Both the position numbers and the translations under genes were made by a program. The notes beneath the pieces are model-generated. The model saw nothing but the letters and a program-made list of their open reading frames with translations, did no database searches and was not told the DNA's origin. A DNA stretch of 23,385 bases from a virus: the IMG/VR virus record IMGVR_UViG_3300032224_000746, positions 1 to 23,385 of that record, one strand, 5' to 3'. Shown here piece after piece: positions 10,909 through 23,286 of the stretch. Numbering within the stretch: the first letter of the stretch is position 1; the number at the start of each line of letters is the position of its first letter.

Positions 10909-11110
10909 TCTCAGCCTCCTTGGACTTGCTTGAGATGAAGACGGCATCGCCGCTTCGCCACGTTACGGTCATAGCGCACTTGCGACAAGGACCGCTTACG
11001 CGACCATCAATCTCTCGGAATAGGTCTTTGAACTTAATGCGCAGAACTTTGTCGTCACCTTCAATCCCGAAAAGTGACCCGCAGTGCTGGCACTTCACAG
11101 GATTTGGCAT
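10895..11110 (-). CDS. Small zinc-ribbon protein
   Basis: The product is 71 residues with two CxxC knuckles, CQHC near residues 6-9 and CRKC near residue 46, the normal layout of a zinc ribbon. The ATG at 11110 has GGAAGG eight bases upstream; longer in-frame starts run into a low-complexity spacer and are not favoured. The C-terminus is charged (SSKSKEAENGED) and overlaps the portal start by 14 bases, which suggests translational coupling. Role unknown; short zinc-ribbon proteins near terminase and portal genes occur in many phages and may bind nucleic acid. Confidence 0.75.
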   Translation of the reverse strand: MPNPVKCQHCGSLFGIEGDDKVLRIKFKDLFREIDGRVSGPCRKCAMTVTWRSGDAVFISSKSKEAENGED

Positions 11111-13232: not shown

Positions 13233-13671
13233 CTGTGTGTCTCTACTTTCGTAAACGTTTTTTTAAAATTTTGACTCCCCCATCAGTTGTACCAGTCAGG
13301 CTGGTCAGCCAGGGGATAGCCGTAATTTTTTTTTAGACTTTCTTCCAGTTTAGCCTGGTAAGAATAGTCTTCCTACTCTATATGGGATTTAGGGTACTGA
13401 TTCGTCCTGATATTAAACATAGAGTATGACTTTTACCAAGGAGCACCCCAGTTTACCCTGTTTCGGCGTTTTTTTCATTTTCCTGCCAGTGCCTGCCAGT
13501 CTTTCTGGATTCTGCCAGTTTACCTAGGGTATGGGTAAAAAAGTTAGAAAACTGCATGTATTTCCTCACGCTACCAGCCCGAGATAAGGAAATAGGCGAT
13601 GGAGCGTATTTGAGGGTGGATTTTAGTGTGATTTTTCGCGGATTCTGCCCCTCGTGCGTGGGATTCTCTCT
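13233..13671. promoter_or_regulatory. Divergent intergenic region with CCAGTTTA / CTGCCAGT repeats
   Basis: No gene is seen here. It contains T runs near 13258-13272 and 13324-13334 and a set of related short repeats: CCAGTTTA followed by pyrimidine-rich sequence at 13345, 13448 and 13515, CTGCCAGT at 13483, 13493 and 13512, and the palindrome ACCAG-TCAGG-CTGGT at 13291-13305. TACTCTAT (13374-13381) is inverted at 13419-13426. This is AT-richer than either side and lies where leftward and rightward transcription diverge, so it probably holds promoters and operators, or a replication origin with iterons. I could not point to a convincing -35/-10 pair. Confidence 0.55.
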
Positions 13672-13703
13672 CTACGGGACGGGACGCGAAGCGTCCGCCG
13701 TAG
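13672..13703 (+). promoter_or_regulatory. Leader hairpin before the first rightward gene
   Basis: CTACGG and CCGTAG enclose an inner stem GGACGC-GAA-GCGTCC. It is followed by GGATACGGAAGGGG and the ATG, resembling the leader hairpin and AAGGGG site of several downstream genes, although element A itself is absent here. Confidence 0.6.
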
Positions 13704-13723
13704 GATACGGAAGGGGTACGGAT

Positions 13724-14512
13724 ATGATCGCAACGGATACGCGCACAATCGCAACGCTAGACGCGGCGGACGCGCTAGCCGTGCTAGCCGCTAGCGTATC
13801 GGCTAGCGCGCGCCTCGCCCTGCTAGGCACGGGGGACGCGGACGATATCGCGGCGGAAGCCTACGCCGCTTGGCTTACGGCGGGAAGCCCCGCCGCGTGG
13901 ACTATCGCGGATGCGATCCGCGCGGGCGTGGCTTCGCTTCGCCCTAGCCGCGAGGGGCTAACGGATGATGAGGGCGGGGACTACGGGTTAGCCGTCTACG
14001 CATCCGCTAGCACGGCGGACGGGCTTACAATCGGGGACGCTATGGATGCGATCCGCGAAGACGCTACGGGCTACGCCGTACGCACGGACGGCGTGCGGGG
14101 CTTCGCGGATGGCGCGCGCTTCGCTATCGTCTACGCGGCGGACGGGTACGATACGGACGGCGCAACCTATACGGACGCTAGCGGGGCTAGCGTCTACGGG
14201 ATGGACGCGATCCTAGCGGCGCGATCCGCCGCGCTTCGCGAGGATACGGCGGGGGAGCACGGGCAAGCCGCCGCCGCGCGAGGGGCTAAGAATCAAGCCG
14301 CTAGCGCGGGGACGGATGCCGCCGTAGCCGCCGCGTATCGGGCGGATGGCGGCGGCAAGGGCTACGCGGCACGGATCGCCGTAGCCCTCGGATGGCTTAG
14401 CGCGGACGCTACGGACGCGCAACGCCTCGCCGCTATGAATCGCGTACGGGTAGCCGTATCGCGGATGAATCGCCGCACGGACGGCGAGGATACGCATAGC
14501 GCGCGGGACTAG
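13724..14512 (+). CDS. Ala/Asp-rich protein, unknown; weak sigma-factor-like pattern
   Basis: The product is 262 residues from the ATG at 13724, chosen because GGAAGGGG lies upstream, just as before other rightward genes; longer in-frame starts lack this. About a third of residues are Ala, there is no Cys and very little Lys. Two stretches recall ECF-type sigma factors: GDADDIAAEAYAAWL followed by AAWTIADAIRAGVASLR (region 2-like), and near the C-terminus ARIAVALGWL then RVRVAVSRMNRR (region 4-like helix-turn-helix). The similarity is weak and judged by eye. Base use is extreme: many CTAG and GCTAGC words and almost no CAG or CTG. It leads the rightward array, fitting a regulator, but function is not established. 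Confidence 0.72.
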   Translation: MIATDTRTIATLDAADALAVLAASVSASARLALLGTGDADDIAAEAYAAWLTAGSPAAWTIADAIRAGVASLRPSREGLTDDEGGDYGLAVYASASTADGLTIGDAMDAIREDATGYAVRTDGVRGFADGARFAIVYAADGYDTDGATYTDASGASVYGMDAILAARSAALREDTAGEHGQAAAARGAKNQAASAGTDAAVAAAYRADGGGKGYAARIAVALGWLSADATDAQRLAAMNRVRVAVSRMNRRTDGEDTHSARD

Positions 14513-14763
14513 CCCTAGCGGGGAGGGGGACGCGCCCCCTCCCCTAGCGTAGCCGTGAAGCCCTTACCCGTAGCGGGTAGGGGCTTCATAGCGTCTAGGG
14601 GCTAGCGCGTAGCCGCCGCACGGATGGGCTAGCGTAGGGCTAGGAAGCCCGTAGGGACGCGATACGGGACGCGGCGCGGGATTGTAGCCCCTAGCCCTAG
14701 CGCGGGGCGTAGCGGGGCGCATACGCGGACGCGCCGCACGGCTTCGCATAATCCGCCGCATCC
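14513..14763 (+). terminator. Tandem strong hairpins and CTAG-rich noncoding stretch
   Basis: Right after the stop, GGGGAGGGGG-ACGCG-CCCCCTCCCC (14520-14544) forms a perfect 10-bp stem, flanked by CTAGCG on each side. A second stem at 14557-14587 pairs GAAGCCC...TACCCG with CGGGTA...GGGCTTC. No U-tract follows either. The remaining 175 bases hold no gene that I can support; they share the CTAG-rich, CAG/CTG-free composition of the preceding gene. Confidence 0.55.
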
Positions 14764-14851
14764 AAGTGTGTAATGATCGGGGATGGGTAGCAAGCCCGTA
14801 ATGATGTCGGTGGATAGTGGAGGGGCGGGATATACCCGCTCCCCGATAGTG
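14764..14851 (+). repeat. Cassette leader 1: elements B and A plus leader hairpin
   Basis: Element B (AAGTGTGTAATG) is at 14764-14775 and element A at 14792-14818 with central triplet ATG; their starts are 28 bases apart. A leader hairpin (GGGGCGGG with CCCGCTCCCC, 14822-14844) is bounded by TAGTG at 14815 and 14847. AAGGGG and the start codon follow. Confidence 0.85.
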
Positions 14852-14862
14852 TAAGGGGTGTA

Positions 14863-15051
14863 ATGATGAGCAAGGGTGATAAGGCGTTCGTGATCGCTAG
14901 CGTAGTGATCGGCGCAGCAGTAGGCACACACTTCGCGGATATTGTCGGCGGGATTGTCGGCGGATTCGCAGGGCTAGGCGCAGCGTGCGTAGCCTACGCA
15001 ATCGGGGATGAAGTCAATATGCGACTGGCGGAGCATTACCGCAAGGCGTAA
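14863..15051 (+). CDS. Small membrane-associated Gly-rich protein, unknown
   Basis: The product is 62 residues. Residues about 8-50 are hydrophobic and Gly/Ala-rich (FVIASVVIGAAVGTHFADIV, then GGIVGGFAGLGAACVAYAIG), enough for one or two short membrane helices with glycine-zipper spacing. The C-terminus is charged. Two adjacent ATGs (14863, 14866) follow AAGGGG; either may be used. It could be a small membrane-acting protein, for instance a superinfection-exclusion or holin-like peptide, but nothing specific supports that. Confidence 0.7.
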   Translation: MMSKGDKAFVIASVVIGAAVGTHFADIVGGIVGGFAGLGAACVAYAIGDEVNMRLAEHYRKA

Positions 15052-15059
15052 GGGTAGAC

Positions 15060-15093
15060 GGGACGGGTAGGGGTAGCATCCCCCTCCCGTCCC
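15060..15093 (+). terminator. GC-rich hairpin after gene
   Basis: GGGACGGG and GGGG pair with CCCC and CCCGTCCC around a six-base loop, a 12-bp stem with small bulges that starts 8 bases after the stop codon. No U-tract follows. Confidence 0.5.
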
Positions 15094-15105
15094 GCTACGC
15101 ATACC

Positions 15106-15159
15106 AAGTGTGTAATGGTCTAGGTTGGGGCTAAGCCCGTAATGATGTCGGTGGATAGT
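15106..15159 (+). repeat. Cassette leader 2: elements B and A with no gene following
   Basis: B is at 15106-15117 and A at 15133-15159 (triplet ATG), starts 27 bases apart. No ribosome-binding site and start codon follow; instead a strong hairpin comes 28 bases later and then the next leader. The stretch 15052-15363 between genes therefore contains two leaders and two hairpins but no supported gene. Confidence 0.82.
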
Positions 15160-15187
15160 GAGCCGCAATAAGAGCGGCGGGGCAAGG

Positions 15188-15216
15188 GTCTAGGGGGATA
15201 CGGATGCCCCCTAGAC
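15188..15216 (+). terminator. Perfect 10-bp hairpin in the gene-less cassette
   Basis: GTCTAGGGGG (15188-15197) pairs perfectly with CCCCCTAGAC (15207-15216) around a nine-base loop. It occupies the position of the hairpin that normally follows a gene, but here it directly follows element A. Confidence 0.5.
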
Positions 15217-15232
15217 GCACCCTATCCCGCAC

Positions 15233-15349
15233 CATTACGCACTTGCTTGCGATTCCGAACGCGCCTAAGTGTGTAATGATCGCGGATGGGGTGAAAGCCC
15301 GTAATGATGTCGGTGGATAGTGAGGGGTGGACGATCCATCCCCGTAGTG
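15233..15349 (+). repeat. Cassette leader 3: inverted arm, B, A and leader hairpin
   Basis: The inverted arm CATTACGCACTT (15233-15244) faces B (15267-15278) across 22 bases. A is at 15295-15321 (triplet ATG), 28 bases after B. The leader hairpin GGGGTGGA/TCCATCCCC (15324-15343, one bulged base) lies between TAGTG at 15318 and 15345. Confidence 0.85.
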
Positions 15350-15363
15350 CGAAGGGGTACGAT

Positions 15364-15705
15364 ATGGGACTACTCGCAACGATCCGCGCTAAGGGCGGCG
15401 CAACGCTAGACGCGGCGACGCTTACGGACGCGGGACTATCGGACGGGTACGCCGTAGGGATGGCGCAGGGAACCGCCCTGATGCTACCAGACGACGCGGA
15501 TGATACTACGCTAGGGCTAGCCCTTAGCCTGATCGCAGGGGCGTACGGATGCGCCTTCGTGGGGGCTTGGGTAGCGGATGACGGGGTACACCTAGACCCC
15601 GTAGCCGTAGTCCCTACCCTAGCGGACGCTATGGACGCGGGGCGACGCTACCAGCAGCGCGCCGTGTACGATATCGCAGGGGCGACGGAGCACGCCGTAG
15701 CCTAA
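15364..15705 (+). CDS. Hypothetical protein, unknown
   Basis: The product is 113 residues from the ATG at 15364, placed after GAAGGGGTACGAT, almost the same upstream sequence as the 13724 gene. It is Ala/Asp/Gly-rich, with LADAMDAGRRYQQRAVYDI near the C-terminus and two internal Ala/Leu-rich helices (LGLALSLIAGAYGCAFVGAW). I recognise no family. An upstream in-frame ATG inside element A would add 20 residues that translate the repeat and hairpin, so it is not preferred. Codon use is CTA- and ACG-rich as in the first rightward gene. Confidence 0.72.
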   Translation: MGLLATIRAKGGATLDAATLTDAGLSDGYAVGMAQGTALMLPDDADDTTLGLALSLIAGAYGCAFVGAWVADDGVHLDPVAVVPTLADAMDAGRRYQQRAVYDIAGATEHAVA

Positions 15706-15706
15706 G

Positions 15707-15737
15707 GGGGACGGGGGGCGGGCGCAAGCCCGTCCCC
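15707..15737 (+). terminator. GC-rich hairpin after gene
   Basis: GGGGACGGG (15707-15715) pairs perfectly with CCCGTCCCC (15729-15737), beginning right after the stop codon. There is no U-tract. Confidence 0.5.
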
Positions 15738-15747
15738 TATCCCGTAC

Positions 15748-15864
15748 CATTACACGCTTGTTTTGGTGTGCCTTGCGCGTGGAAGTGTGTAATGATTAGG
15801 GATGGGCAACAAGCCAGTAATGTTCTCGGTGGATAGTGAGGGGTGGGCTTCCATCCCCGTAGTG
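15748..15864 (+). repeat. Cassette leader 4: inverted arm, B, A and leader hairpin
   Basis: The inverted arm CATTACACGCTT is at 15748-15759, B at 15783-15794, and A at 15811-15837 (variant AAGCCAGTAATG, triplet TTC), B to A 28 bases. The hairpin GGGGTGG...CCATCCCC (15840-15858) lies between TAGTG copies at 15834 and 15860. Confidence 0.85.
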
Positions 15865-15876
15865 TAGGGGTGAAGT

Positions 15877-16020
15877 ATGTACGCAGAATCGGATAAGTTT
15901 ATTGCGGATTGTGAAGTGTGCGCGATTCTAGGCATCCGCTCCCTCGCGCGATTCTTGGGCGGCGGGCGTTGGCTATGCGATCCGTGCTCGGTGGACTTCA
16001 TCAAGGCGCGTAGGGGATAG
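15877..16020 (+). CDS. Small zinc-ribbon-like protein
   Basis: The product is 47 residues with two CxxC pairs: CEVC (residues 12-15) and CDPC (residues 34-37), 18 residues apart, a standard zinc-ribbon spacing. AGGGGTGAAGT precedes the ATG. The rest is short and basic at the C-terminus (FIKARRG). Probably a nucleic-acid or protein-binding knuckle; no specific family recognised. Confidence 0.72.
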   Translation: MYAESDKFIADCEVCAILGIRSLARFLGGGRWLCDPCSVDFIKARRG

Positions 16021-16027
16021 CCCTCAT

Positions 16028-16145
16028 CATTACACACTTCGGCGCGGTCGGCGCGCTTACCAAGTGTGTAATGGTGAAGGTTGGGCGACAAGCCCGTAAT
16101 GTTCTCGGTGGATAGTGGAGGAGCAGACAAACTGCTCCCGTAGTG
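16028..16145 (+). repeat. Cassette leader 5: perfect inverted B pair, A and leader hairpin
   Basis: CATTACACACTT (16028-16039) and AAGTGTGTAATG (16062-16073) are a perfect 12-bp inverted repeat with a 22-base loop that itself contains repeated GGCGCG. A is at 16090-16116 (triplet TTC), 28 bases after B. The hairpin GGAGCAG-ACAAA-CTGCTCC (16120-16138, including one A shared with the loop) lies between TAGTG at 16113 and 16141. Confidence 0.88.
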
Positions 16146-16158
16146 TAAGGGGTGCGAT

Positions 16159-16386
16159 ATGGTTAGGCTTATGATCCAAGTATTCGCGGAAACCACATAC
16201 GAGCGGGCGTTCTACGAGGTAGAGATTGCGGCGCGTACCGAGAAGGGCGTATTCCGCGAGGCGAAGAAACTCGCAACCGCCCTAGCCGCAACGCTGGAAG
16301 GGCGCACAATCGCAACCGAGGTGATGCTTACGGAAAACGCGCAACGCGCCGCGTATGGGACGGTCATCCGTAGCAACCACCGCTAG
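16159..16386 (+). CDS. Hypothetical protein, unknown
   Basis: The product is 75 residues. It starts with beta-type sequence (RLMIQVFAETTYERAFYEVEI), followed by a helix (VFREAKKLATALAATLEG) and a short C-terminal strand-like part. AAGGGGTGCGAT precedes the ATG. A small alpha/beta domain is likely. I recognise no family, and there is no cysteine, signal peptide or membrane segment. Confidence 0.72.
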   Translation: MVRLMIQVFAETTYERAFYEVEIAARTEKGVFREAKKLATALAATLEGRTIATEVMLTENAQRAAYGTVIRSNHR

Positions 16387-16392
16387 GACTTC

Positions 16393-16428
16393 GGTAGGGG
16401 GCGGGGTCGTATCCCTCCGTCCCCTACC
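16393..16428 (+). terminator. GC-rich hairpin after gene
   Basis: GGTAGGGG (16393-16400) pairs with CCCCTACC (16421-16428), with further inner CGG/CCG pairing. It begins 6 bases after the stop codon and directly abuts the following inverted B arm. Confidence 0.5.
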
Positions 16429-16545
16429 ATTACACGCTTCCGTGCGTTCCGATACGCGGGCAAGTGTGTAATGGTGAAGGATAGGGGTAAAGCCCGTAAT
16501 GTTCTCGGTGGATAGTGGAGGGACGGACAATCCGCCCCCCTAGTG
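16428..16545 (+). repeat. Cassette leader 6: inverted arm, B, A and leader hairpin
   Basis: The inverted arm CATTACACGCTT is at 16428-16439, B at 16462-16473 (22-base loop), and A at 16490-16516 (triplet TTC), 28 bases after B. The hairpin GGGACGGA...TCCGCCCC (16520-16538) lies between TAGTG at 16513 and 16541. Confidence 0.86.
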
Positions 16546-16557
16546 TGAGGTGTAGCA

Positions 16558-16884
16558 ATGGGAAGAGTAAGCAATAGAAACGCGGATGCGCATATCCGCA
16601 ACGCGATCCCGTTCGTAGGGTCTAACTTCTACGGGGTAGACGGATCGCATAGCCGATACGGATCGGCGCGATGGTATCTATCGGGCGCGGCGGAGGAGCG
16701 ATTCCATAAGGATCAGGCAGCGGGGAAGATTCATTACTCGGTCTGGTCTTATAGCACGCCTATCGCGTGGCTTGTGGAGGGCGAGGGCTGGGTTATCCCG
16801 CCCGTCAAGTACTCAATGAGCACGGGGCGACACCAGTCCTATGTGCGCCGCGCTACGGCGGGGCAAGCAATCGCAACGGCGTAG
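16558..16884 (+). CDS. Conserved phage protein with SYxTPIAW motif, unknown function
   Basis: The product is 108 residues. The segment VWSYSTPIAWLVEGEGWVIP followed by VKYSMSTGRHQSYVRRA matches a pattern I know from uncharacterised phage and plasmid proteins, in which a TPIAW strand, a W-x-P turn and S-x-T-x-RHQ are conserved; I recall these as DUF proteins without known activity. The N-terminal half is basic and includes FVGSNFYGVDG. GAGGTGTAGCA precedes the ATG. Possibly a small nucleic-acid-related domain, but the role is unknown. Confidence 0.8.
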   Translation: MGRVSNRNADAHIRNAIPFVGSNFYGVDGSHSRYGSARWYLSGAAEERFHKDQAAGKIHYSVWSYSTPIAWLVEGEGWVIPPVKYSMSTGRHQSYVRRATAGQAIATA

Positions 16885-16891
16885 GCGGTAC

Positions 16892-16919
16892 GGGGGGCGG
16901 GCGAGGTAGCCCGTCCCCC
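16892..16919 (+). terminator. GC-rich hairpin after gene with G-U wobble
   Basis: GGGGG-G-CGGGC pairs with GCCCG-T-CCCCC, an 11-bp stem containing one G-U pair that is stable only in the rightward transcript. It starts 7 bases after the stop. Confidence 0.5.
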
Positions 16920-16930
16920 TATACCCCTAC

Positions 16931-17100
16931 CATTACACACTTCCGAACTGCGCCGAACTACCCAAGTGTGTAATGATGCTGGATGTGCCTAAGTGTGTAA
17001 TGGTTGGGGATGACCCGCAAGCCCGTAATGTTCTCGGTGGATAGTGGAAGGACAAGCAACAATGCTAGACACCAAGCCCGTAATGGACTCGGTGGATAGT
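16931..17100 (+). repeat. Cassette leaders 7 and 8: B-B-A plus a second A in tandem
   Basis: The inverted arm CATTACACACTT (16931-16942) is followed by B at 16964-16975, a second B at 16991-17002, and A at 17019-17045 (triplet TTC). Starts are spaced 27 and 28 bases. A further A copy (triplet GAC) follows at 17074-17100. This is the densest element cluster in the window and begins a 679-base stretch (16885-17563) without a firmly supported gene. Confidence 0.85.
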
Positions 17101-17217
17101 GGAGGGGCAGACCGAATCCTAGGAATCGGTACGGACTTCCAATGGTGAGGCTCTTGGACGAGCGAGCAGTTATGCCGCAGCCATAAGTGCGGGTATAAGA
17201 GAAGCAAAGGGCGATGA
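17062..17217 (+). pseudogene. Possible small reading frame interrupted by TGA, ending in a Cys/His knuckle
   Basis: An ATG at 17062 preceded by GGAAGG opens 28 codons, which read through element A copy 8, then meets TGA at 17146-17148. The same frame continues for 22 codons (GSWTSEQLCRSHKCGYKRSKGR given in parts: GSWTSEQLC, RSHKCGYKRSKGR) to a TGA at 17215. The second part looks protein-like, with C-R-S-H-K-C, but has no start codon of its own. It may be a decayed small gene into which an element was copied. A chance frame is equally possible. Confidence 0.3.
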
Positions 17218-17297
17218 CCGCTAAACCAATGTATCGGAGGAGCGGTAGGGCGCGAGGAGGGCAACCCCGACGGGGGCAAACCCGAATCAACCCGAAT

Positions 17298-17333
17298 AAG
17301 AGGGGGGCTACCCGACGGGGTAGTCCTCCTCTT
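17298..17333 (+). terminator. Very long hairpin (16 bp) with two G-U pairs
   Basis: AAGAGGGGGGCTACCC (17298-17313) pairs with GGGTAGTCCTCCTCTT (17318-17333), including two G-U wobbles that favour the rightward RNA. It is the hairpin closing the cluster before the next leader. Confidence 0.55.
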
Positions 17334-17349
17334 GCTATCCCCGTCCTAC

Positions 17350-17439
17350 CATTACGGGCTTGTTTTTTATCCGATCAAGTGTGTAATGATGAGGGTTGCG
17401 CCGAAATAACCCAAGCCAGTAATGATCTCGGTGGATAGC
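17350..17439 (+). repeat. Cassette leader 9: inverted arm matching A, then B and A
   Basis: Here the left arm is CATTACGGGCTT (17350-17361), the exact complement of the A start AAGCCCGTAATG rather than of B. B is at 17377-17388 and A at 17413-17439 (variant AAGCCAGTAATG, triplet ATC, ends GGATAGC). Only a doubtful 20-codon frame follows. Confidence 0.82.
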
Positions 17440-17469
17440 AGAGGGGCGACTCCAATAAGGAGCAGAGAG

Positions 17470-17532
17470 ATGGGGGCTATACGCCCTCCCGCCGCAGGGG
17501 GTAAAACTGCCGTCCCTCTACTAAGCCAGTAA
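17470..17532 (+). CDS. Doubtful 20-residue reading frame
   Basis: AGGAG lies seven bases before an ATG that opens 20 codons (MGAIRPPAAGGKTAVPLLSQ) and stops with the TAA inside the next element A. The frame also contains a GGGGGC/GCCC hairpin. Position after a leader and stop inside the next one fit the local cassette pattern, but the length allows no firm call. Confidence 0.25.
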   Translation: MGAIRPPAAGGKTAVPLLSQ

Positions 17533-17549
17533 TGGTATCGGTGGATAGT
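17523..17549 (+). repeat. Element A copy 10 (compact leader)
   Basis: Variant AAGCCAGTAATG, triplet GTA, then TCGGTGGATAGT. AGGAGG follows directly, without a leader hairpin, and the ATG is at 17564. Confidence 0.85.
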
Positions 17550-17563
17550 GAGGAGGTGTACCA

Positions 17564-17752
17564 ATGGCAGTAGGCGTGAACTTGACTGACCTGATTCGCT
17601 ATGAGCAGGGCGAGATGACCGAGGAGGAGGTCGTGAACTTCTTCCAAGACCTCTACGACTCTGGGGTATGGCATCAACTACAAGGGCATTACCAGCGCAC
17701 GATGAACGATCTCGTTCAGGCGGGACTGGTATCGGTGTTCGGGAGCAACTAA
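17564..17752 (+). CDS. Conserved small phage protein (DUF7417-like), unknown function
   Basis: The product is 62 residues. DLIRYEQGEMTEEEVVNFFQ, then LYDSGVWHQLQGHYQR and a hydrophobic end (LVQAGLVSVFG) match a small family common in phages of Actinobacteria, recognised by YExGExxEEExxxxFQxLxDxGxxWQLQGxYxR. I associate it with DUF7417 from memory. It is helical, acidic and probably cytosolic. GAGGAGGTG precedes the ATG. Biochemical role unknown. Confidence 0.85.
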   Translation: MAVGVNLTDLIRYEQGEMTEEEVVNFFQDLYDSGVWHQLQGHYQRTMNDLVQAGLVSVFGSN

Positions 17753-17783
17753 CTACACGGGGGACGCACTACCCCCGACTTCT

Positions 17784-17815
17784 GGGACGGCAGGGACGCA
17801 CCCCCCTGTCGTCCC
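17784..17815 (+). terminator. 12-bp hairpin after gene
   Basis: GGGACGGCAGGG (17784-17795) pairs with CCCTGTCGTCCC (17804-17815), one G-U wobble, in the rightward transcript. No U-tract. Confidence 0.5.
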
Positions 17816-17828
17816 TACTACCATAGGC

Positions 17829-17990
17829 AAGTGTGTAATGGTTGGGGATGGGTGGCAAGTGTGTAATGTTGTGGGTTGGGTTGGCAGAACTGGGCAGGAT
17901 TGGGGGCGGATGGTAAAGAAAACCTAACCTAACCATAATCATTACACACATAATCGCACGGAGCGCGTTGGTAGGATGTAGCGTGTAATG
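17829..17990 (+). repeat. Two B elements and a long G-U-rich inverted repeat in a gene-free stretch
   Basis: B copies at 17829-17840 and 17857-17868 are 28 bases apart. The sequence from 17857 (GTGTGTAATG...GGTTGGGTTGG) is inverted at about 17922-17949 (CCTAACCTAACC...CATTACACAC), pairing with two G-U wobbles. A further GCGTGTAATG is at 17981-17990. A degenerate A start (AAGCCTGTAATG) is at 18013. The interval 17753-18238 holds these repeats and leaders 11 and 12, and no gene that I can support. Confidence 0.7.
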
Positions 17991-18065
17991 GTAGAGGTGT
18001 ATAGATAGGAGCAAGCCTGTAATGATCTGGGCTAATCCGTGCGTAGAACACCTGTTCTAGCCGTC

Positions 18066-18092
18066 AAGCCCGTAATGATATCGGTGGATAGT
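18066..18092 (+). repeat. Element A copy 11, no gene following
   Basis: The triplet is ATA. The downstream 83 bases contain AGGAG but no usable start codon before the next element at 18176. Confidence 0.85.
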
Positions 18093-18175
18093 AGGAGATA
18101 GCGACATAGAGGAAGCGGGTATAGACCCCCCTATATATCGCCATATTTCTGCGGTATTTCGGCGCGATTATTGGG

Positions 18176-18229
18176 AAGCCCGTAATGGTGTCGGTGGATA
18201 GTGAGGGGATCGGTGTGATCCCCATAGTG
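18176..18229 (+). repeat. Element A copy 12 with perfect leader hairpin
   Basis: A is at 18176-18202 (triplet GTG). GGGGATC (18205-18211) pairs perfectly with GATCCCC (18217-18223) between TAGTG copies at 18199 and 18225. GAGGTG and the ATG follow. Confidence 0.88.
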
Positions 18230-18238
18230 GAGGTGGGT

Positions 18239-18475
18239 ATGGCTGAGCAGGAGTTTATCAACATTACGCCTAGCAGCGACGGCTACGCAATGATGGCGGC
18301 GGTGTTCGCTGAGGATATTCTCGGCAACATCCGCAAGAGTGATCGCGAGCGTATGACCTCGCTCTTGGGATCGGTTATCAACATTTCGGCGCACTTGGGC
18401 AACGCAGCAGCGCAGGACGACGCGGACGCGATCAAAGCGTACGAGTGGCTTGTGGAGCGGTTCCCCGCAAAGTAA
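18239..18475 (+). CDS. Hypothetical protein, unknown
   Basis: The product is 78 residues from the ATG at 18239, after GGAGGTGGGT. The protein is largely helical (GYAMMAAVFAEDILGNIRKS, then LLGSVINISAHLGNAAAQDD) and ends AYEWLVERFPAK. No family recognised. The stop codon TAA overlaps the first two bases of the next element A. An in-frame ATG within element A would add 18 residues read through the hairpin and is not preferred. Confidence 0.75.
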   Translation: MAEQEFINITPSSDGYAMMAAVFAEDILGNIRKSDRERMTSLLGSVINISAHLGNAAAQDDADAIKAYEWLVERFPAK

Positions 18476-18526
18476 GCCCGTAATGGTGTCGGTGGATAGT
18501 AGGAAGCCCCCGTTGGGGGAGTAGTG
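18474..18526 (+). repeat. Element A copy 13 with leader hairpin; overlaps preceding stop codon
   Basis: A is at 18474-18500 (triplet GTG); its first two bases complete the TAA of the gene before it. CCCCC-GTT-GGGGG (18507-18519) forms the leader hairpin, followed by TAGTG and GAGGTG. Confidence 0.86.
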
Positions 18527-18535
18527 GAGGTGTGT

Positions 18536-18907
18536 ATGGCGTACTACAAGGGGAATACATCATTACCAGAGCATTGGGGAACGATTGAGCACACGGATCA
18601 CGCAGGGGTAGTTCGGCGCACTAGGCGGTGGATGGCGTACGAGGGTGCGGATACCCTTGATGACTTCCGTCAAGCGTGGAAGCGCACCCGTGTCTGGAAG
18701 TGCGGGATCGCTCATCACGATGCGTATCGGATTGAGCCTACGCCGTGCGCGGTGTGCGGCGTAATGATTACTGAGGAAGTCGGGCAAGACAACCGACCCT
18801 TCGTTGAGTGGCGACGCGGGTGGGCAGACTTGCGGGTCAAACATTACAAGTGCGCGTGGGGTCAGACTCTCAACGCGGTGGTGAACCTAAGCAGGGAACT
18901 AGCCTAA
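18536..18907 (+). CDS. Hypothetical protein with CxxC motif, unknown
   Basis: The product is 123 residues from the ATG at 18536, after GGAGGTGTGT. It contains CAVC (around residues 79-82) and a later HYKCAWG, which may form a metal site with the HH pair earlier (IAHHDAYRI). The N-terminal half is aromatic and charged (RRTRRWMAYEGADTLDDF, QAWKRTRVWKC). I recognise no family. Its stop TAA overlaps the next element A. Confidence 0.74.
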   Translation: MAYYKGNTSLPEHWGTIEHTDHAGVVRRTRRWMAYEGADTLDDFRQAWKRTRVWKCGIAHHDAYRIEPTPCAVCGVMITEEVGQDNRPFVEWRRGWADLRVKHYKCAWGQTLNAVVNLSRELA

Positions 18908-18932
18908 GCCCGTAATGGTGTCGGTGGATAGT
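18906..18932 (+). repeat. Element A copy 14 (compact)
   Basis: The triplet is GTG. The element starts inside the stop codon of the previous gene; AGGAGGTG and the ATG at 18945 follow without a hairpin. Confidence 0.88.
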
Positions 18933-18944
18933 AGGAGGTGGAGT

Positions 18945-19166
18945 ATGAAGATCGGTAGCGCAGAGCGATATGGTGAGCACTATCAAGTGGTTCGGATGTT
19001 CTTTGAGGATCGTCCGCGCGAGGTGGTCGCGAAGTATATGACCCTTGCGGAAGCGCAGGAGTGGTGTCGCGATCCCGAAACTAGCAGCAGCACGGCGACG
19101 AGCGCGGAAGCGGTCGCCCGTACGGAGAAGTTGGGCGCGTGGTTTGACGGCTACGAGGAAGTCTAA
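18945..19166 (+). CDS. Conserved phage protein (EAQxWCxDPETSS type), unknown function
   Basis: The product is 73 residues. The pattern YMTLAEAQEWCRDPETSSST followed by TSAEAVARTEKLGAWFDGYEE matches a small family I know from many actinobacteriophages and other phages, with invariant EAQ, C-x-DPETSS and G-x-WFDGYE. No function is known to me. AGGAGGTGGAGT precedes the ATG. It likely forms a compact alpha/beta domain in the cytosol. Confidence 0.85.
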   Translation: MKIGSAERYGEHYQVVRMFFEDRPREVVAKYMTLAEAQEWCRDPETSSSTATSAEAVARTEKLGAWFDGYEEV

Positions 19167-19173
19167 CCGCAAT

Positions 19174-19258
19174 CATTACGCGCTTCGGCGCGTGTGGAAG
19201 TGTGTAATGGTAAAGGATGGGCAGGAAAAACAAGCCCGTAATGATGTCGGTGGATAGT
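19174..19258 (+). repeat. Cassette leader 15: inverted arm, B and A
   Basis: The inverted arm CATTACGCGCTT is at 19174-19185, B at 19198-19209 (12-base loop), and A at 19232-19258 (triplet ATG), 34 bases after B. The stop-proximal sequence TAACCGCAATCATTAC recurs at 20883. Confidence 0.85.
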
Positions 19259-19271
19259 GAGGAGGTGGAGT

Positions 19272-19364
19272 ATGAAGGTTCGGTGCGATGAGTGTGGTCG
19301 GGTCTTTGACCTGAGCAACAATGAGCAAGCGCAGGAGTGGGCATACGGACACGATTGCGAGTAA
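19272..19364 (+). CDS. Tiny C2HC zinc-finger-like protein
   Basis: The product is 30 residues: CDEC (residues 5-8) and a C-terminal H-x-C (GHDCE) form a plausible CCHC-type zinc knuckle. GAGGAGGTGGAGT precedes the ATG. The TAA stop overlaps the next element A, so this gene is a complete minimal cassette from one element to the next. Confidence 0.75.
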   Translation: MKVRCDECGRVFDLSNNEQAQEWAYGHDCE

Positions 19365-19389
19365 GCCCGTAATGATATCGGTGGATAGT
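19363..19389 (+). repeat. Element A copy 16 (compact)
   Basis: The triplet is ATA. The element overlaps the previous stop codon by two bases, and AGGAGGTGGCT leads straight into the ATG at 19401. Confidence 0.88.
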
Positions 19390-19400
19390 AGGAGGTGGCT

Positions 19401-19817
19401 ATGAAGATCACAAGCGTGGTACTGGAAGCAAGCGACGCGGTGAATATCGTAGTGGGCGCGATTGAGGGCGGCACGGGGTATTGGGCTGAGTGTACCGACT
19501 ACAAGTGGAAGCGTTGGTATGTGAATCCCGATGCTAAGTTTGACGACCCCGACCACGACAAACTACGGGATATCCCGCGCGACGAGGTGCTCGTCCGTAT
19601 CAAGGAAGACGAGGACAACGGCGAGCCGACGCGCGAGGTGAACGACTGGTTTGAGATCACGACGGAGAACTTGGAGCGAGCGGTGTGCGCCGTGCTCAAT
19701 AGCGAGTACGCCCATACCATCTCGTTTGACGCATACGGCGGAGAGATAGATGTGGACGCGACGGGCGCGGATATCATCTTTCAGTACGCAATGTTCGGGG
19801 AACTGGTCTTCGCATAA
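19401..19817 (+). CDS. Acidic hypothetical protein, unknown
   Basis: The product is 138 residues from the ATG at 19401; a GTG two codons earlier lies within the ribosome-binding site and is rejected. The N-terminus (MKITSVVLEASDAVNIVVGA) looks like a beta-strand pair, and YWAECTDYKWKRWYVNPDAK is aromatic. The second half is strongly acidic (RIKEDEDNGEPTREVNDWFE; ISFDAYGGEIDVDATGADII). No recognised family. Strong acidity may indicate a DNA-mimic or inhibitor-type protein, which is speculation. Confidence 0.75.
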   Translation: MKITSVVLEASDAVNIVVGAIEGGTGYWAECTDYKWKRWYVNPDAKFDDPDHDKLRDIPRDEVLVRIKEDEDNGEPTREVNDWFEITTENLERAVCAVLNSEYAHTISFDAYGGEIDVDATGADIIFQYAMFGELVFA

Positions 19818-19818
19818 C

Positions 19819-19845
19819 AAGCCCGTAATGGTGTCGGTGGATAGC
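19819..19845 (+). repeat. Element A copy 17 (compact)
   Basis: The triplet is GTG and the element ends GGATAGC. It follows the previous TAA after one base. AGAGGAGGTGGAGT leads to the ATG at 19860. Confidence 0.86.
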
Positions 19846-19859
19846 AGAGGAGGTGGAGT

Positions 19860-20138
19860 ATGTACGAGATGATGACTTGCTCTGAGTGTGGGGAGATGGC
19901 GTACTACCCCGACGAGGTTGCTGTTGGGTTCTGGGTTCACGACGGCGGTCTTGCGGTCAAGGACAATATCTTCGCGACGCTGAGCGTAGCGGATATTACT
20001 GACGCAACTGGGACGAGCGTGCCAGAGGGCGCGAAGGTCTATTGCTTGGAGTGTACGCCGTGCGAGTGCGGCGATCACCAGAAGTTTGCGCCGCACACGG
20101 CAGAGAATATCGTGGCATACGAAGGAGGCTCAAAGTGA
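19860..20138 (+). CDS. Zinc-ribbon-like hypothetical protein
   Basis: The product is 92 residues. CSEC (residues 7-10) and a C-terminal cluster CLECTPCEC provide at least four ligands for zinc. Between them is a beta-rich acidic stretch (VGFWVHDGGLAVKDNIFATL). GAGGTGGAGT precedes the ATG. It is the first gene of a five-gene run with overlapping or near-touching genes and no element A between them, so these are probably co-transcribed. Confidence 0.75.
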   Translation: MYEMMTCSECGEMAYYPDEVAVGFWVHDGGLAVKDNIFATLSVADITDATGTSVPEGAKVYCLECTPCECGDHQKFAPHTAENIVAYEGGSK

Positions 20139-20269
20139 GCACGAAGGTATGGTGCGACGACTGCGAGCGCACGGAGATTGTCTGCGAGTGCGTAGACAAT
20201 AAAGATCGGGATAATGCTTGCTACGAGTTAGAGCAAGCAGAGAACTGCGAACATAGTCAGGAGGGGTAG
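20135..20269 (+). CDS. Small Cys-rich protein, unknown
   Basis: The product is 44 residues from a GTG that overlaps the preceding TGA (GTGA). AAGGAGG lies seven bases upstream, which supports the GTG. Cysteines occur as CDDC and CEC plus two more, and the sequence is otherwise acidic. It probably binds a metal. The four-base overlap with the previous gene implies translational coupling. Confidence 0.65.
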   Translation: MSTKVWCDDCERTEIVCECVDNKDRDNACYELEQAENCEHSQEG

Positions 20270-20270
20270 G

Positions 20271-20561
20271 ATGAGTCATATCAAGGAAACAAAGCGGTTC
20301 CTCGCTGAGGTGGACTTCCGCGCGATCAAGCGCGTAGTCATCTTCGCGGAGGATGAGGGCGACGCTATGGGTCGGCTAATGACGACCGATGTGGAACTCT
20401 TTATGAGCGACTCTGGTCGGCGCGATCTTTATGTCGGCTATGGCATTGAGGTCTTGGGTGATGAACCTGCGGGACACGGGTCTGGCAGCGTCTATGTGGT
20501 CGGCGAGGTGGACGAGCGCGAGAGCGCGCGCACCAACACGATTGTGGTGGGCAATGATTAG
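20271..20561 (+). CDS. Hypothetical protein, unknown
   Basis: The product is 96 residues. It begins MSHIKETKRFLAEVDFRAIK, then VVIFAEDEGDAMGRLM, a beta-alpha pattern, and ends with Gly/Ser and Val-rich strands (GSGSVYVVGEVDERESARTN). AGGAGGGGTAGG precedes the ATG. No recognised family, no membrane segment. It overlaps the next gene by 8 bases. Confidence 0.72.
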   Translation: MSHIKETKRFLAEVDFRAIKRVVIFAEDEGDAMGRLMTTDVELFMSDSGRRDLYVGYGIEVLGDEPAGHGSGSVYVVGEVDERESARTNTIVVGND

Positions 20562-20739
20562 GCGCGACGAGCCGAACGGGGAGTTTCTAGTTTGCGACTG
20601 CGGCAACGATGTGATGAGCGACGGGTTTGACCCCGTTGATCCGCACACGGGCAAGGTAGTTGAGCCGACCCCGTTGGAGTGGGACGGAGTATCGTGGCAA
20701 TGCCACAAGTGTAAGGTGATTGAGCCAGTAGCATTATGA
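20554..20739 (+). CDS. Small zinc-ribbon-like protein
   Basis: The product is 61 residues with CDC near the start (FLVCDCGNDV) and CHKC near the end (WQCHKCKVI), a plausible zinc ribbon. The ribosome-binding site is weak (GTGGTGG), but the ATG overlaps the previous stop region, so translation is probably coupled. Function unknown. Confidence 0.68.
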   Translation: MIRRDEPNGEFLVCDCGNDVMSDGFDPVDPHTGKVVEPTPLEWDGVSWQCHKCKVIEPVAL

Positions 20740-20753
20740 AAGAGGAGGACAAA

Positions 20754-20885
20754 GTGGTTATCAAGGGCGAGAACCGACACCGCAAGGTGGAGAAGCGCAA
20801 GCGCGCAATGCTGATGAGCGGCAAGGGTACGCTTCGGCAGCAGAACGAACTTGCTGCGAAAGAGCGGCAGAAGCGTCAGGGCTAA
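20754..20885 (+). CDS. Small very basic helical protein
   Basis: The product is 43 residues from a GTG with GAGGAGG five bases upstream. An in-frame ATG at 20736 (ATGA overlap with the previous stop) would add six residues including the ribosome-binding site itself, and is second choice. It is rich in Lys, Arg and Gln (RHRKVEKRKRAMLMSGKG; LAAKERQKRQG) and likely one or two helices. RNA or DNA binding is plausible from charge only. Confidence 0.62.
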   Translation: MVIKGENRHRKVEKRKRAMLMSGKGTLRQQNELAAKERQKRQG

Positions 20886-20892
20886 CCGCAAT

Positions 20893-21003
20893 CATTACTC
20901 ACTTGTCCAACGCAAGTAGAAGTGTGTAATGTTCTAGGTTGCCTATAAGAAAATCAAGCCCGTAATGTTGTCGGTGGATAGTGGGAGAACAATCTCCCTA
21001 GTA
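20893..21003 (+). repeat. Cassette leader 18: inverted arm, B, A and leader hairpin
   Basis: The inverted arm CATTACTCACTT is at 20893-20904, B at 20920-20931, and A at 20956-20982 (triplet TTG). The leader hairpin GGGAGA-ACAA-TCTCCC (20983-20998) lies between TAGTG (20979) and TAGTA (20999). Confidence 0.85.
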
Positions 21004-21014
21004 TGGAGGTGGGT

Positions 21015-21317
21015 ATGTCTATGGCGAAACATTGGAACAAGGTGGAGGCGTGGCTCCACGACGCTAAGGGTATCGCGTTTGACGATTGCCACAAGATTTA
21101 TGTCTTGATGGACGAAGAGCAGATGGCTTTGATGAAGGAGTACGGGTATGACCCGCTGATTTCTTCCGACACAATGACTATTGACGAGATGCTCAGCACG
21201 CTGAAACTTTGGTACAAGAAGTCGTGTATGTTGCGATTTATCAACGCGGTGAGCACGAATCACGAAGACCCGAACTTGGGCTTTGTTGATCTGATCCCGC
21301 AAGGTGCTGACGAGTAA
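21015..21317 (+). CDS. Conserved phage protein (EYGYDPLI type), unknown function
   Basis: The product is 100 residues from the ATG at 21015 after GGAGGTGGGT; a second ATG two codons later is also possible. Recognisable conserved segments are LMDEEQMALMKEYGYDPLI, LSTLKLWYKKSCMLRFINAV and LGFVDLIPQG, a pattern I have seen in uncharacterised proteins of actinobacteriophages. It is acidic, helical and cytosolic. The stop TAA overlaps the next element A. Confidence 0.8.
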   Translation: MSMAKHWNKVEAWLHDAKGIAFDDCHKIYVLMDEEQMALMKEYGYDPLISSDTMTIDEMLSTLKLWYKKSCMLRFINAVSTNHEDPNLGFVDLIPQGADE

Positions 21318-21342
21318 GCCCGTAATGATGTCGGTGGATAGT
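21316..21342 (+). repeat. Element A copy 19 (compact)
   Basis: The triplet is ATG. It starts within the preceding TAA and is followed by GAGGAGGTGGTT and the ATG at 21355. Confidence 0.88.
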
Positions 21343-21354
21343 GAGGAGGTGGTT

Positions 21355-21621
21355 ATGAGTAAGGCTGATGGGTTTGGTATCCGTCATCGCGATTGTGGTG
21401 GTCGGCTGATGTCGCAAGAGGCGACTATTGTCTACCACTCAATAGAGGCAGACGGCAAGGGTAGTTGGAAGTATGACGGGTGGGAAGTTGGTCGTGATGA
21501 ATCAACTGACCAGATCGGCTTCTCCTGTGATCTATGCGACGAAACAATCCCGTGGTCTGGATTTGAGATGATTCAGACTGACGAAGATTGGTGGGGGTTT
21601 TATGGTGGCAAGAGTGTCTGA
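21355..21621 (+). CDS. Hypothetical protein with Cys pair, unknown
   Basis: The product is 88 residues. RDCGGRL near the N-terminus and CDLCDE near residues 59-62 could form a zinc ribbon; between them is EATIVYHSIEADGKGSWKYD. The C-terminus is Trp-rich (WSGFEM...DEDWWGFYGG). GAGGAGGTGGTT precedes the ATG. The 3' end overlaps the next gene by 20 bases. Confidence 0.75.
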   Translation: MSKADGFGIRHRDCGGRLMSQEATIVYHSIEADGKGSWKYDGWEVGRDESTDQIGFSCDLCDETIPWSGFEMIQTDEDWWGFYGGKSV

Positions 21622-21829
21622 CGAGGTTGGCGTAGAGGTAATGGGATTCACGGCTACGGATGTCCTAGCGGTAATCCGCGAAGACGAGGACTTTATGTCG
21701 GAGGCTGAGGCTGAGAAGTTTCTGCGCGTAATGGGCAGAAAGTTTCAGGATCGCCTAACTGAGGAGGGCTTTGATATCCTCAGAACATTTGTAGAGATGT
21801 ACCGCAAGGAGGTGGCTGATAATGGCTGA
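21602..21829 (+). CDS. Hypothetical helical protein, unknown
   Basis: The product is 75 residues from the ATG at 21602 (GGTGGGGG upstream). An internal ATG at 21641 (MGFTATDVLAVI) also has GAGG nearby and may be the real start. The core is helical and acidic (IREDEDFMSEAEAEKFLRVM; LTEEGFDILRTFVEMYRKEV). No family recognised. It overlaps both neighbours, pointing to one transcript. Confidence 0.68.
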   Translation: MVARVSDEVGVEVMGFTATDVLAVIREDEDFMSEAEAEKFLRVMGRKFQDRLTEEGFDILRTFVEMYRKEVADNG

Positions 21830-22088
21830 GGTAGTAAGTGGTCGCAACTTGACGACCATTGTGCTCAACGAAACGGAGGTTCGGTATCTGCGGGATGTGC
21901 TCTCCGATGTGGAGATTCGGTCGCGGCAAGAAGATTCGTTTGCGGCTACGCAGATTGCCGTGCTCTACGAACTATGGACGGCTGTGTCTGACGCAGAGCA
22001 GTTTGAGCCAGAGGAAGACCTTCTGACTGCGGCTGGTGAGGCGTATCACTTCCGCGAGCCAGACTTGGCTGAGCCAGACGGCAAGTAA
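21822..22088 (+). CDS. Hypothetical acidic protein, unknown
   Basis: The product is 88 residues. TIVLNETEVRYLRDVLSDVE is a helix-type segment also seen in other small phage proteins, and the C-terminus is acidic and unstructured-looking (REPDLAEPDGK). AAGGAGG lies nine bases before the ATG. It overlaps the previous gene by 8 bases, and its TAA stop overlaps the next element A. Confidence 0.74.
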   Translation: MAEVVSGRNLTTIVLNETEVRYLRDVLSDVEIRSRQEDSFAATQIAVLYELWTAVSDAEQFEPEEDLLTAAGEAYHFREPDLAEPDGK

Positions 22089-22113
22089 GCCCGTAATGGT
22101 GTCGGTGGATAGT
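22087..22113 (+). repeat. Element A copy 20 (compact)
   Basis: The triplet is GTG. It overlaps the previous stop by two bases; AGAGGAGGTAGT leads into the ATG at 22126. Confidence 0.88.
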
Positions 22114-22125
22114 AGAGGAGGTAGT

Positions 22126-22356
22126 ATGAACGACGGGTACATTAGGGTTCGGATCAACGATGTTCGTTGGGCAGCATTGTGCTACGACAACGACACGCAC
22201 GCTTGGGGCGGGACAATCTGGGAGAAGTCGGCTGATGGCAACGACTACGCTCTTGGTGCTACCGCAGGGTTCCCTGTTGAGGGCAAGCATAATATCCACA
22301 ATGTCGCGGCACTTGTGGAGAATATCGTGGAAGGAGAGAACGGCTATGGCAAGTAA
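22126..22356 (+). CDS. Hypothetical protein, unknown
   Basis: The product is 76 residues. It begins MNDGYIRVRINDVRWAALCY, followed by WGGTIWEKSADGNDYALG, a beta-rich pattern, and ends with a helix (NIHNVAALVENIVEGENGYGK). The ribosome-binding site is GAGGAGG. No recognised family. It overlaps the next gene by 11 bases. Confidence 0.72.
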   Translation: MNDGYIRVRINDVRWAALCYDNDTHAWGGTIWEKSADGNDYALGATAGFPVEGKHNIHNVAALVENIVEGENGYGK

Positions 22357-22522
22357 TAAACTTCGGATGGCTAAGAAGGTAAGGTCGCTCCGCCCGTACT
22401 CCGTGATCCTCGCTGAGGCACGAGAGCGCGAGCGAAAGACGACCCTGTTGATCGCCTATATGAGCCTTGCTCTGGCGATGTTTGGAATCTACCTTGCGGG
22501 GATCGCAATCGGTAGCAACTAG
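22346..22522 (+). CDS. Small single-pass membrane protein
   Basis: The product is 58 residues. A basic N-terminal half (MASNKLRMAKKVRSLRPYSV) is followed by EARERERKT and one clear membrane helix at about residues 34-56 (LLIAYMSLALAMFGIYLAGI). Positive charge before the helix suggests the N-terminus stays in the cytosol. GAAGGAG is upstream of the ATG. A role in lysis or exclusion is possible but not indicated by sequence. Confidence 0.72.
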   Translation: MASNKLRMAKKVRSLRPYSVILAEARERERKTTLLIAYMSLALAMFGIYLAGIAIGSN

Positions 22523-22523
22523 C

Positions 22524-22550
22524 AAGCCCGTAATGGGTTCGGTGGATAGT
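22524..22550 (+). repeat. Element A copy 21 (compact)
   Basis: The triplet is GGT, the most divergent in the set. It begins one base after the preceding TAG, and AGGAGGTGGAGTT leads to the ATG at 22564. Confidence 0.86.
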
Positions 22551-22563
22551 AGGAGGTGGAGTT

Positions 22564-23286
22564 ATGCCTAACTGGTGTAAGAATCGGGTACTAGTAATCG
22601 GGGACGAAACGCAACGAGCAGAGGTATCGGCGTTCGTGTACGGCAGCGACGAGCAGAAGTTTGACTTCTCAAAGATCGTCCCGCCGCCAAACACGGCAGC
22701 CTACTCTGCTACGGCAAGCAGCACGGATTATGCTTGCGGCTGTAAGTCTGAGTATGTGGGCGAATCGCCTGACGGGTCGTGGCAGATCAACGGCAAGGAA
22801 GTCGTTGGCGGTCGCTGCCCAGAGCACGATAAGATTTGTATGATGGACTCGCCAGACAACTGGTACAACTGGAATGTTGAGCATTGGGGTACTAAGTGGA
22901 ACGCTGGCGACGAGTATGTTTCTGACGACAATGGTGTCTGGGGATTTGATACGGCGTGGTCGCCAGCCGAGCCTGTGATTCGGGCGTTGGCTGAGCGGTT
23001 CCCCGATATCACTTTCATCCACGATTATGTGGAGCAGGGCATCGCGTTCGTTGGTCGCAAGGTTTACAACGCGCCAGAATCAGACGAGGCTCGCGATAGG
23101 TTTGCGACGATTGTCTGCGGTGGAGACTCTCACTCAGACGAGTGGTATGGCTTCTCGTATGACGAGGAAGTCATCCCTCCTCAGATGCTCCTAACGGAGT
23201 GTGAGATTGACGCTGAGCAGCACGGCACGCTTGTCTGGTGGGCTACGGCTAAGGCTCTATTCCCTGAGGGTGGGTGGGGCGGCTGA
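22564..23286 (+). CDS. Api92/DUF1281-like ferredoxin-fold protein
   Basis: The product is 240 residues. The start MPNWCKNRVLVIGDE matches the hallmark MPNWCxNxLxIxG opening of the Api92/YubB-like (DUF1281) family of phage and plasmid proteins, and VWGFDTAWSPAEPVIRALAE followed by RFPDITFIHDYVEQGIAFVG matches its C-terminal ferredoxin-like part. A Cys-rich insertion lies between (YACGCKSEY ... GGRCPEHDKIC). The family's biochemical role is not established. AGGAGGTGGAGTT precedes the ATG. The gene ends TGATG, overlapping the next start. Confidence 0.85.
   Translation: MPNWCKNRVLVIGDETQRAEVSAFVYGSDEQKFDFSKIVPPPNTAAYSATASSTDYACGCKSEYVGESPDGSWQINGKEVVGGRCPEHDKICMMDSPDNWYNWNVEHWGTKWNAGDEYVSDDNGVWGFDTAWSPAEPVIRALAERFPDITFIHDYVEQGIAFVGRKVYNAPESDEARDRFATIVCGGDSHSDEWYGFSYDEEVIPPQMLLTECEIDAEQHGTLVWWATAKALFPEGGWGG

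Follow-up and report, generated by a model that had tools for sequence, protein, structure and literature searches.

Do the small early genes of a phage move as exact units, each with its own start signal, and does that signal take part in the move? The question is raised by the IMG/VR virus record IMGVR_UViG_3300032224_000746, a phage fragment of 23,385 nucleotides (positions 1 to 23,385, here called the window). Its structural genes lie on the minus strand, where TerL, portal and the major head and tail proteins could be assigned with PHROGs, and an array of small genes occupies the plus strand from 14.7 kb on. A short element, A (AAGCCCGTAATGnnnTCGGTGGATAG), is present in 21 full copies from 14792 to 22552, all on the plus strand and confined to this array, and most of the small early genes have a copy directly upstream. 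Sites resembling AAGCCCGTAATG with no more than two mismatches number 31, against a mean of 1.5 in shuffled sequences. We consider it reasonably probable that A is a promoter-type leader and that genes are exchanged through it.

Leaders complete the stop codons of upstream genes

Seven genes of the window directly abut a copy of A, and five of them overlap it. Their TAA codons are at 18473–18475, 18905–18907, 19362–19364, 21315–21317 and 22086–22088, and the AA of each is the start of a copy of A (beginning at 18474, 18906, 19363, 21316 and 22087, respectively), exactly as the original prediction had proposed. The two further genes that it placed one base from A are also found so, ending at 19817 (TAA) and 22522 (TAG). 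The doubtful frame that it listed before 17532 does stop at a TAA inside A (offset +7), and this frame has no gene support.

Overlap in five of seven genes has P ~7e-5 if each has a chance of 1/12 (right frame plus a T before A), and P = 0.013 under a generous chance of 1/4 each. The remaining 14 copies of A follow a stem-loop, B, or noncoding DNA. Only 2 of these 14 have a T before A, so the T does not just belong to the repeat itself.

Neither a search for the exact A pattern in viral contigs nor a megablast search of the window against phages gave a match, because the leaders of the relatives are altered; the relatives were found by a TerL search instead, which gave 17 loci. The contigs are metagenomic and the independent rearrangements among them modest in number. 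Two close relatives, G2 (L010) and G3 (L011), have TerL proteins 98% identical to that of the window and leaders that read AAGCCCGTAATGnnnnGGGTTGATAG and TAGCCCGTAATGnTTGGTGTATAnnGT, respectively. In the farther relatives G6, G10a and G10b (TerL identity 77–79%) the leaders are unrelated to A but repeated just as much. The leader of G10b is GGTATGTTAGGGTTTAGGGTATAnnGTAGG, that of G6 is a near relative of it, and that of G10a is ATATGTGAAATGATyTCGGCTAGAGGGTAGG. G6 (57,059 bp, circular) appears complete, since it has a 127-bp terminal repeat, and all 33 of its 33 leader-type hits are on the plus strand within one array. G10a and G10b are the two halves of an 83 kb contig, IMGVR_UViG_3300027608_000021 (L033–L036), with two TerL genes, two arrays and two leader types, which is either two adjacent phage genomes or a chimeric assembly.

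Flush joints between stop codon and leader are found in the window, G2, G3, G10b and G6, in the forms T/AAGCCC, TAGCCC and TA/GGTATG. G2 has three TAA codons at offset -1 and one TAG at 0; G3 has four TAG at 0, one of them closing a doubtful open reading frame (ORF), and one TAA at -1; TA/G occurs six times in G10b and twice in G6. Since the fit recurs with unrelated leaders, it looks like a design constraint and not like an accident of one repeat.

Genes are gained, lost and reordered at leader borders

The original prediction held that alignment with related phages would place breakpoints in A, and differences in gene content and order do fall at leader-bearing borders. Of the border types in six arrays, 56 of 67 with a leader are broken compared with 2 of 16 without one (Fisher p 1.5e-7), in a comparison made within two groups of relatives from hand-curated gene lists, whose counts do not represent independent events. 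Six units (g3, P, Q, F11, F18 and F34) are singly present or absent, with a leader at both junctions. The order is X-F14-F20 in G10a, X-F7-F14-F20 in G6 and X-F11-F7-F14-F18-F20 in G10b, where each gene is one leader unit. No gene separates g10 from g11 in the window, where a single copy of A stands between them (copy 17, 19819–19859), whereas G2 has gene P at this place and G3 has gene Q, a member of the F14 family, each with a leader on either side.

Such single-unit insertions and deletions overlap almost exactly one leader, so that breakpoints do fall within the elements. The aligned pieces share window 19819–19855 for P and G2 10911–11007 for g3; in G6 they share 1457–1495 for F11, 2103–2127 for F18 and 56607–56671 for F34. 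The g10/g11 leader of the window looks like a hybrid, matching the left half of the G2 leader between g10 and P and the right end of that between P and g11. In G10b, the leaders on either side of F18 are identical over ~60 nt.

A is probably a transcription-start leader

Two copies of A in tandem (copy 7, 17019–17047, and copy 8, 17074–17102) precede a conserved, structured noncoding RNA-like unit at 17100–17345, copy 8 directly. This unit occurs in six phages, has no conserved ORF, contains 12 predicted pairs with compensatory changes and ends in a terminator-like 3' stem. Hairpins begin right after GATAGTG in the window, G2 and G3, and vary in sequence among the phages yet still fold. No sigma-70-like site was found on the plus strand of the array, and A as a sigma-70 promoter was rejected on the same ground. 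The noncoding RNA behind A, the hairpins just after it and the lack of other promoter-like sites on the plus strand lead us to regard A as probably a transcription-start leader.

The structured RNA (~220–240 nt) was also seen at L026:15228-15465 (-), L029:13402-13645 and L036:10861-11096 (-), with further sites at L033:15356-15597 (-), L030:1177-1421 (-) and about 900–1125 of L079, a 90.8 kb contig outside the TerL relatives. In L079, TTGACA stands ahead of the RNA, where no A was seen. No Rfam family matched the unit, and four RNA-motif matches in genome contigs were rejected as chance, as they lie in other sequence.

B (AAGTGTGTAATG) forms a stem-loop with an upstream arm, and inverted repeats of the type CATTACRCRCTT ... 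AAGTGTGTAATG stand upstream of a subset of the A copies. Both arms have changed together in G3; most departures of the left arm from the complement in the window and in G2 are compatible with G.U pairing. Two such stem-loops are at 19174–19209 (CATTACGCGCTT ... AAGTGTGTAATG), ahead of A copy 15, and at 20893–20934, ahead of A copy 18.

In the mechanism that we propose, A would be a compact, phage-specific leader with the start of transcription at or just before GATAG, which would supply the gene behind it with a ribosome-binding site and often a 5' hairpin. It is repeated ahead of almost all small early genes or gene groups, and a copy that abuts a gene begins at the last sense codon of that gene and completes its stop codon with its own first bases. 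Homologous or annealing-type recombination between leaders could then add, remove or reorder single genes, as the leaders are the only sequence common to neighbouring unrelated genes; recombination may also use the ribosome-site boxes in which the leaders end, and the flush joint would leave every product intact during exchange. What we infer from the sequences is that A acts as a promoter, where transcription starts, how recombination proceeds, and that the leader sequence would follow a phage-specific recognition factor.

ORFs that move without their leader, and rival explanations

A number of observations weigh against this explanation. Gene X (78 aa, 18239–18475) and gene Y (123 aa, 18536–18907) stand in the order X-Y in the window but Y-X in G2 and G3. 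The Y-X order is likely ancestral, because a Y homologue also precedes X in G6. In the window, G2 and G3 alike the first leader (A copy 12 with its hairpin, 18176–18238, which precedes X here and Y in the two relatives) keeps a ATCGGTGTGAT-type hairpin and the second (copy 13 with hairpin, 18474–18535, before Y here) a CCCC-loop-GGGG hairpin, so the swap exchanged the ORFs only while leaders and hairpins stayed in place. Its left junction is at the ribosome-site box TAGTGGAGGTG, which follows A and lies just ahead of the ATG. Likewise, g10 (138 aa, 19401–19817) is shared with G10b, whose leader is unrelated, and the identity runs from AGGAGG to TAACA only, with no donor leader. Its synonymous divergence (dS) between the window and G10b is 0.59, lower than that of three structural genes (1.06 to 2.9) and of most other shared array genes (1.3 to 2.4), so that its exchange probably postdates the separation of the lineages. 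Homologues of g10 in phages L048–L053 lie in ordinary runs of overlapping genes without leaders.

Other doubts concern the breakpoints themselves. One g17 junction falls inside the 5' codons of the next gene, outside A. Leaders next to each other show no clear excess of similarity over leaders farther apart (p 0.05 to 0.45), and as a sign of local conversion the similarity was set aside as weak. Breakpoints at gene ends could stem from selection and not from leader homology, most borders that lack a leader belong to gene groups whose function may hold them together, and the broken borders that were counted are non-independent events. As to the promoter, GATAGT read as a classical -10 would place transcription initiation within the hairpin or the ribosome site, and PF00940 (T7-type RNA polymerase) had no match in nine records, among which only G6 looks complete, with no match in the controls either.

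The claim that ORF and A form an exact unit thus holds for the single-unit insertions and deletions at leaders and fails for the X/Y swap, in which the ORFs moved alone; since the leaders stayed behind, the exchanged unit is not always A plus ORF. In the same way, the proposal that recombination between A copies swaps, deletes or duplicates whole genes is largely supported, and agrees with rearrangement at leader borders and with single-unit indels, but not with X, Y and g10. A bolder variant is that the leader is a phage-type-specific promoter, replaced genome-wide when its recognition factor changes, while ORFs are exchanged exactly, from ribosome site to stop codon. As every leader type completes the upstream stop, ORFs could on this variant be exchanged like cartridges even between unrelated leaders. 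We think this possible, if somewhat doubtful.

The stops that are flush even where donor and recipient leaders are unrelated, the transfer of g10 into a phage of another leader type, joined at AGGAGG and TAACA and nowhere else, and the g17 junction outside a leader would also be expected if leader homology were irrelevant, and tightly packed genes with a required regulatory leader were rearranged by illegitimate recombination and filtered by selection. Compaction and selection alone are nevertheless an unlikely explanation: breaks at the leader-less borders of these arrays are very rare, and single-unit indels are bounded by leaders at both ends, with one hybrid-looking leader and one identical flanking pair. 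Rather unlikely, too, is that A and B bind a phage repressor that blocks elongation or initiation in the manner of stoperators, with relatives differing by immunity type. The 12-bp core is asymmetric, has one orientation, and is uniform in any one phage but changes from one close relative to the next, and G6 and G10 encode an HTH_3 regulator. Yet conservation in A runs through GATAG to the ribosome site, the constancy of B together with the mostly G.U-compatible changes of its left arm suggests RNA pairing, and leaders are found in one early array only, with none in structural or replication genes.

If A were instead an element of translation start, as proposed for the start-associated sequences (SAS) of mycobacteriophages, with no role in transcription, its place would be explained, since almost all genes or gene groups of the array have a copy next to their ribosome site and start codon. 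This is quite improbable given the tandem pair ahead of an untranslated, terminator-ended RNA and the distance from A to the ATG, which varies through inserted hairpins. The original prediction had drawn a parallel to integron cassettes, and site-specific recombination of that type acting on A would account for the exchange of whole units between short repeats. It is hardly credible: in the non-structural genes that were scanned in G6 and G10 no recombinase was seen among the families listed (in two of the scans the first 25), with no search aimed at integrases made; no palindromic attC-like fold was seen, and every unit has one orientation, with none inverted. The analogy is weak because no recombinase was seen, and the integron-like logic was not borne out.

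The HTH_3 regulators (150–153 aa, with an unmatched N-terminal part) are encoded at L031:18369-18830 (-) and L035:11194-11646 (-). They are possible readers of the leader or of the B sites.

Comparison with known phage repeats

Promoter early stem-loop (PeSL) cassettes reportedly consist of a small repeated stem-loop and a promoter between early accessory genes, and are said to go with gene shuffling. They are a feature of T4-type phages (Arbiol 2010 and Comeau 2014, cited in PMC4503421). In the window array, too, a small repeated element separates small accessory genes of a variable early region, stem-loops stand before many copies of A, and gene gain, loss and shuffling at the cassettes between close relatives is likewise found among the relatives of the window. 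The promoter position here would follow from sequence, with no sigma-70 match seen. Moreover, the window phage belongs to another phage group and is not a T4-type myovirus by its TerL and portal matches, the B stem-loop is missing from many units, A completes the preceding stop codon, and relatives with orthologous genes have different leader sequences. By analogy, PeSL is the closest working counterpart of the A array and gives the proposed mechanism a precedent.

The closest anatomical analogue is SAS/ESAS (extended SAS) of cluster K mycobacteriophages, a 13-bp repeat (GGGATAGGAGCCC) 3–7 bp from start codons (PMC3203893). These repeats are asymmetric, in one orientation and in the non-structural half of the genome; about half have an upstream inverted repeat, whose consensus differs between subclusters, and stop codons can lie inside the repeat (PMC3203893). 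A is similarly short, asymmetric and one-oriented, lies near start codons in a non-structural region, has stops within the repeat and has inverted repeats upstream of some copies. It differs in reading AAGCCCGTAATGnnnTCGGTGGATAG and not GGGATAGGAGCCC, in its distance to the ATG, which varies with hairpins, in its longer unit with a hairpin after the repeat, in copies that precede a noncoding RNA and in its link to unit gain and loss. Neither PeSL nor SAS/ESAS is matched by the A array in all defining features.

Stoperators have a sequence that is specific to each phage type. They are repeats of cluster A mycobacteriophages (PMC9283540). Both they and A are asymmetric, but stoperators occur across the genome, while the copies of A are leaders in promoter position in one early array. 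The likeness to integron cassettes is an analogy only, in that one gene and one recombination sequence form the exchange unit; A leads its gene rather than trailing it, and no integrase or attC fold was seen.

New relative to these precedents are the flush stop codons and the replacement of the leader between relatives that share genes. The array makes a clear sequence-level case for accessory early genes as an interchangeable shelf, with one gene, one start signal and a built-in stop codon. Whether phage mosaicism stems from shared boundary sequences or from selection only becomes testable, because leader-bearing and leader-less borders lie side by side in these arrays.

Layout of the array and neighbouring features

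All features of the array are on the plus strand. Copies of A with a hairpin precede g1 (14863–15051; A at 14792–14820), g2 (15364–15705; copy 3, 15295–15323), g3 (15877–16020; copy 4, 15811–15839; the unit missing in G2 and G3), g4 (16159–16386; copy 5, 16090–16118) and g5 (16558–16884; copy 6, 16490–16518). No gene could be assigned behind copy 2 (15133–15161), and copy 11 (18066–18094) has none directly behind it. Copy 9 (17413–17441) is a AAGCCAGTAATG variant. Copy 10 (17523–17551) precedes g6 (17564–17752), and its internal TAA at 17530–17532 closes only a chance frame.

Beyond Y, copy 14 (18906–18934) precedes gene Z (18945–19166), copy 15 (19232–19260) precedes g9 (19272–19364), copy 16 (19363–19391), which shares AA with the g9 stop, precedes g10, and copy 17 precedes g11. 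Copy 18 with its hairpin (20956–20984) stands before g16 (21015–21317), whose TAA is overlapped by copy 19 (21316–21344), before g17 (21355–21621; missing in G2). Copy 20 (22087–22115) overlaps the TAA of g19 and precedes g20 (22126–22356), and copy 21 (22524–22552), one base behind the TAG of g21, precedes g22 (22564–23286).

The portal protein of the window matches phrog_12 and phrog_2662. No TerL relative was found in genome contigs, and the best named TerL matches (~29% identity) are to Brevibacillus and Thermus phages. Two large candidate "proteins" of unknown kind, of 718 and 573 aa, were rejected, as their composition and the genes on the opposite strand mark them as ORFs antisense to DnaB, nuclease and other genes. 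The stretch 13690–14760 is GC-rich (69% compared with 51% to its left), contains many CTAG and CGCG words and takes in most of a 318-aa ORF (13556–14512) without a PHROGs match. GGCC occurs once and CCGG not at all in the window, where ~79 and ~75 are expected. The same extreme avoidance is seen in G2, G3, G6, G10, G4 and G9, with near-normal counts in the farther G12 and G13, a pattern that points to hosts of the window's lineage exerting strong restriction pressure.

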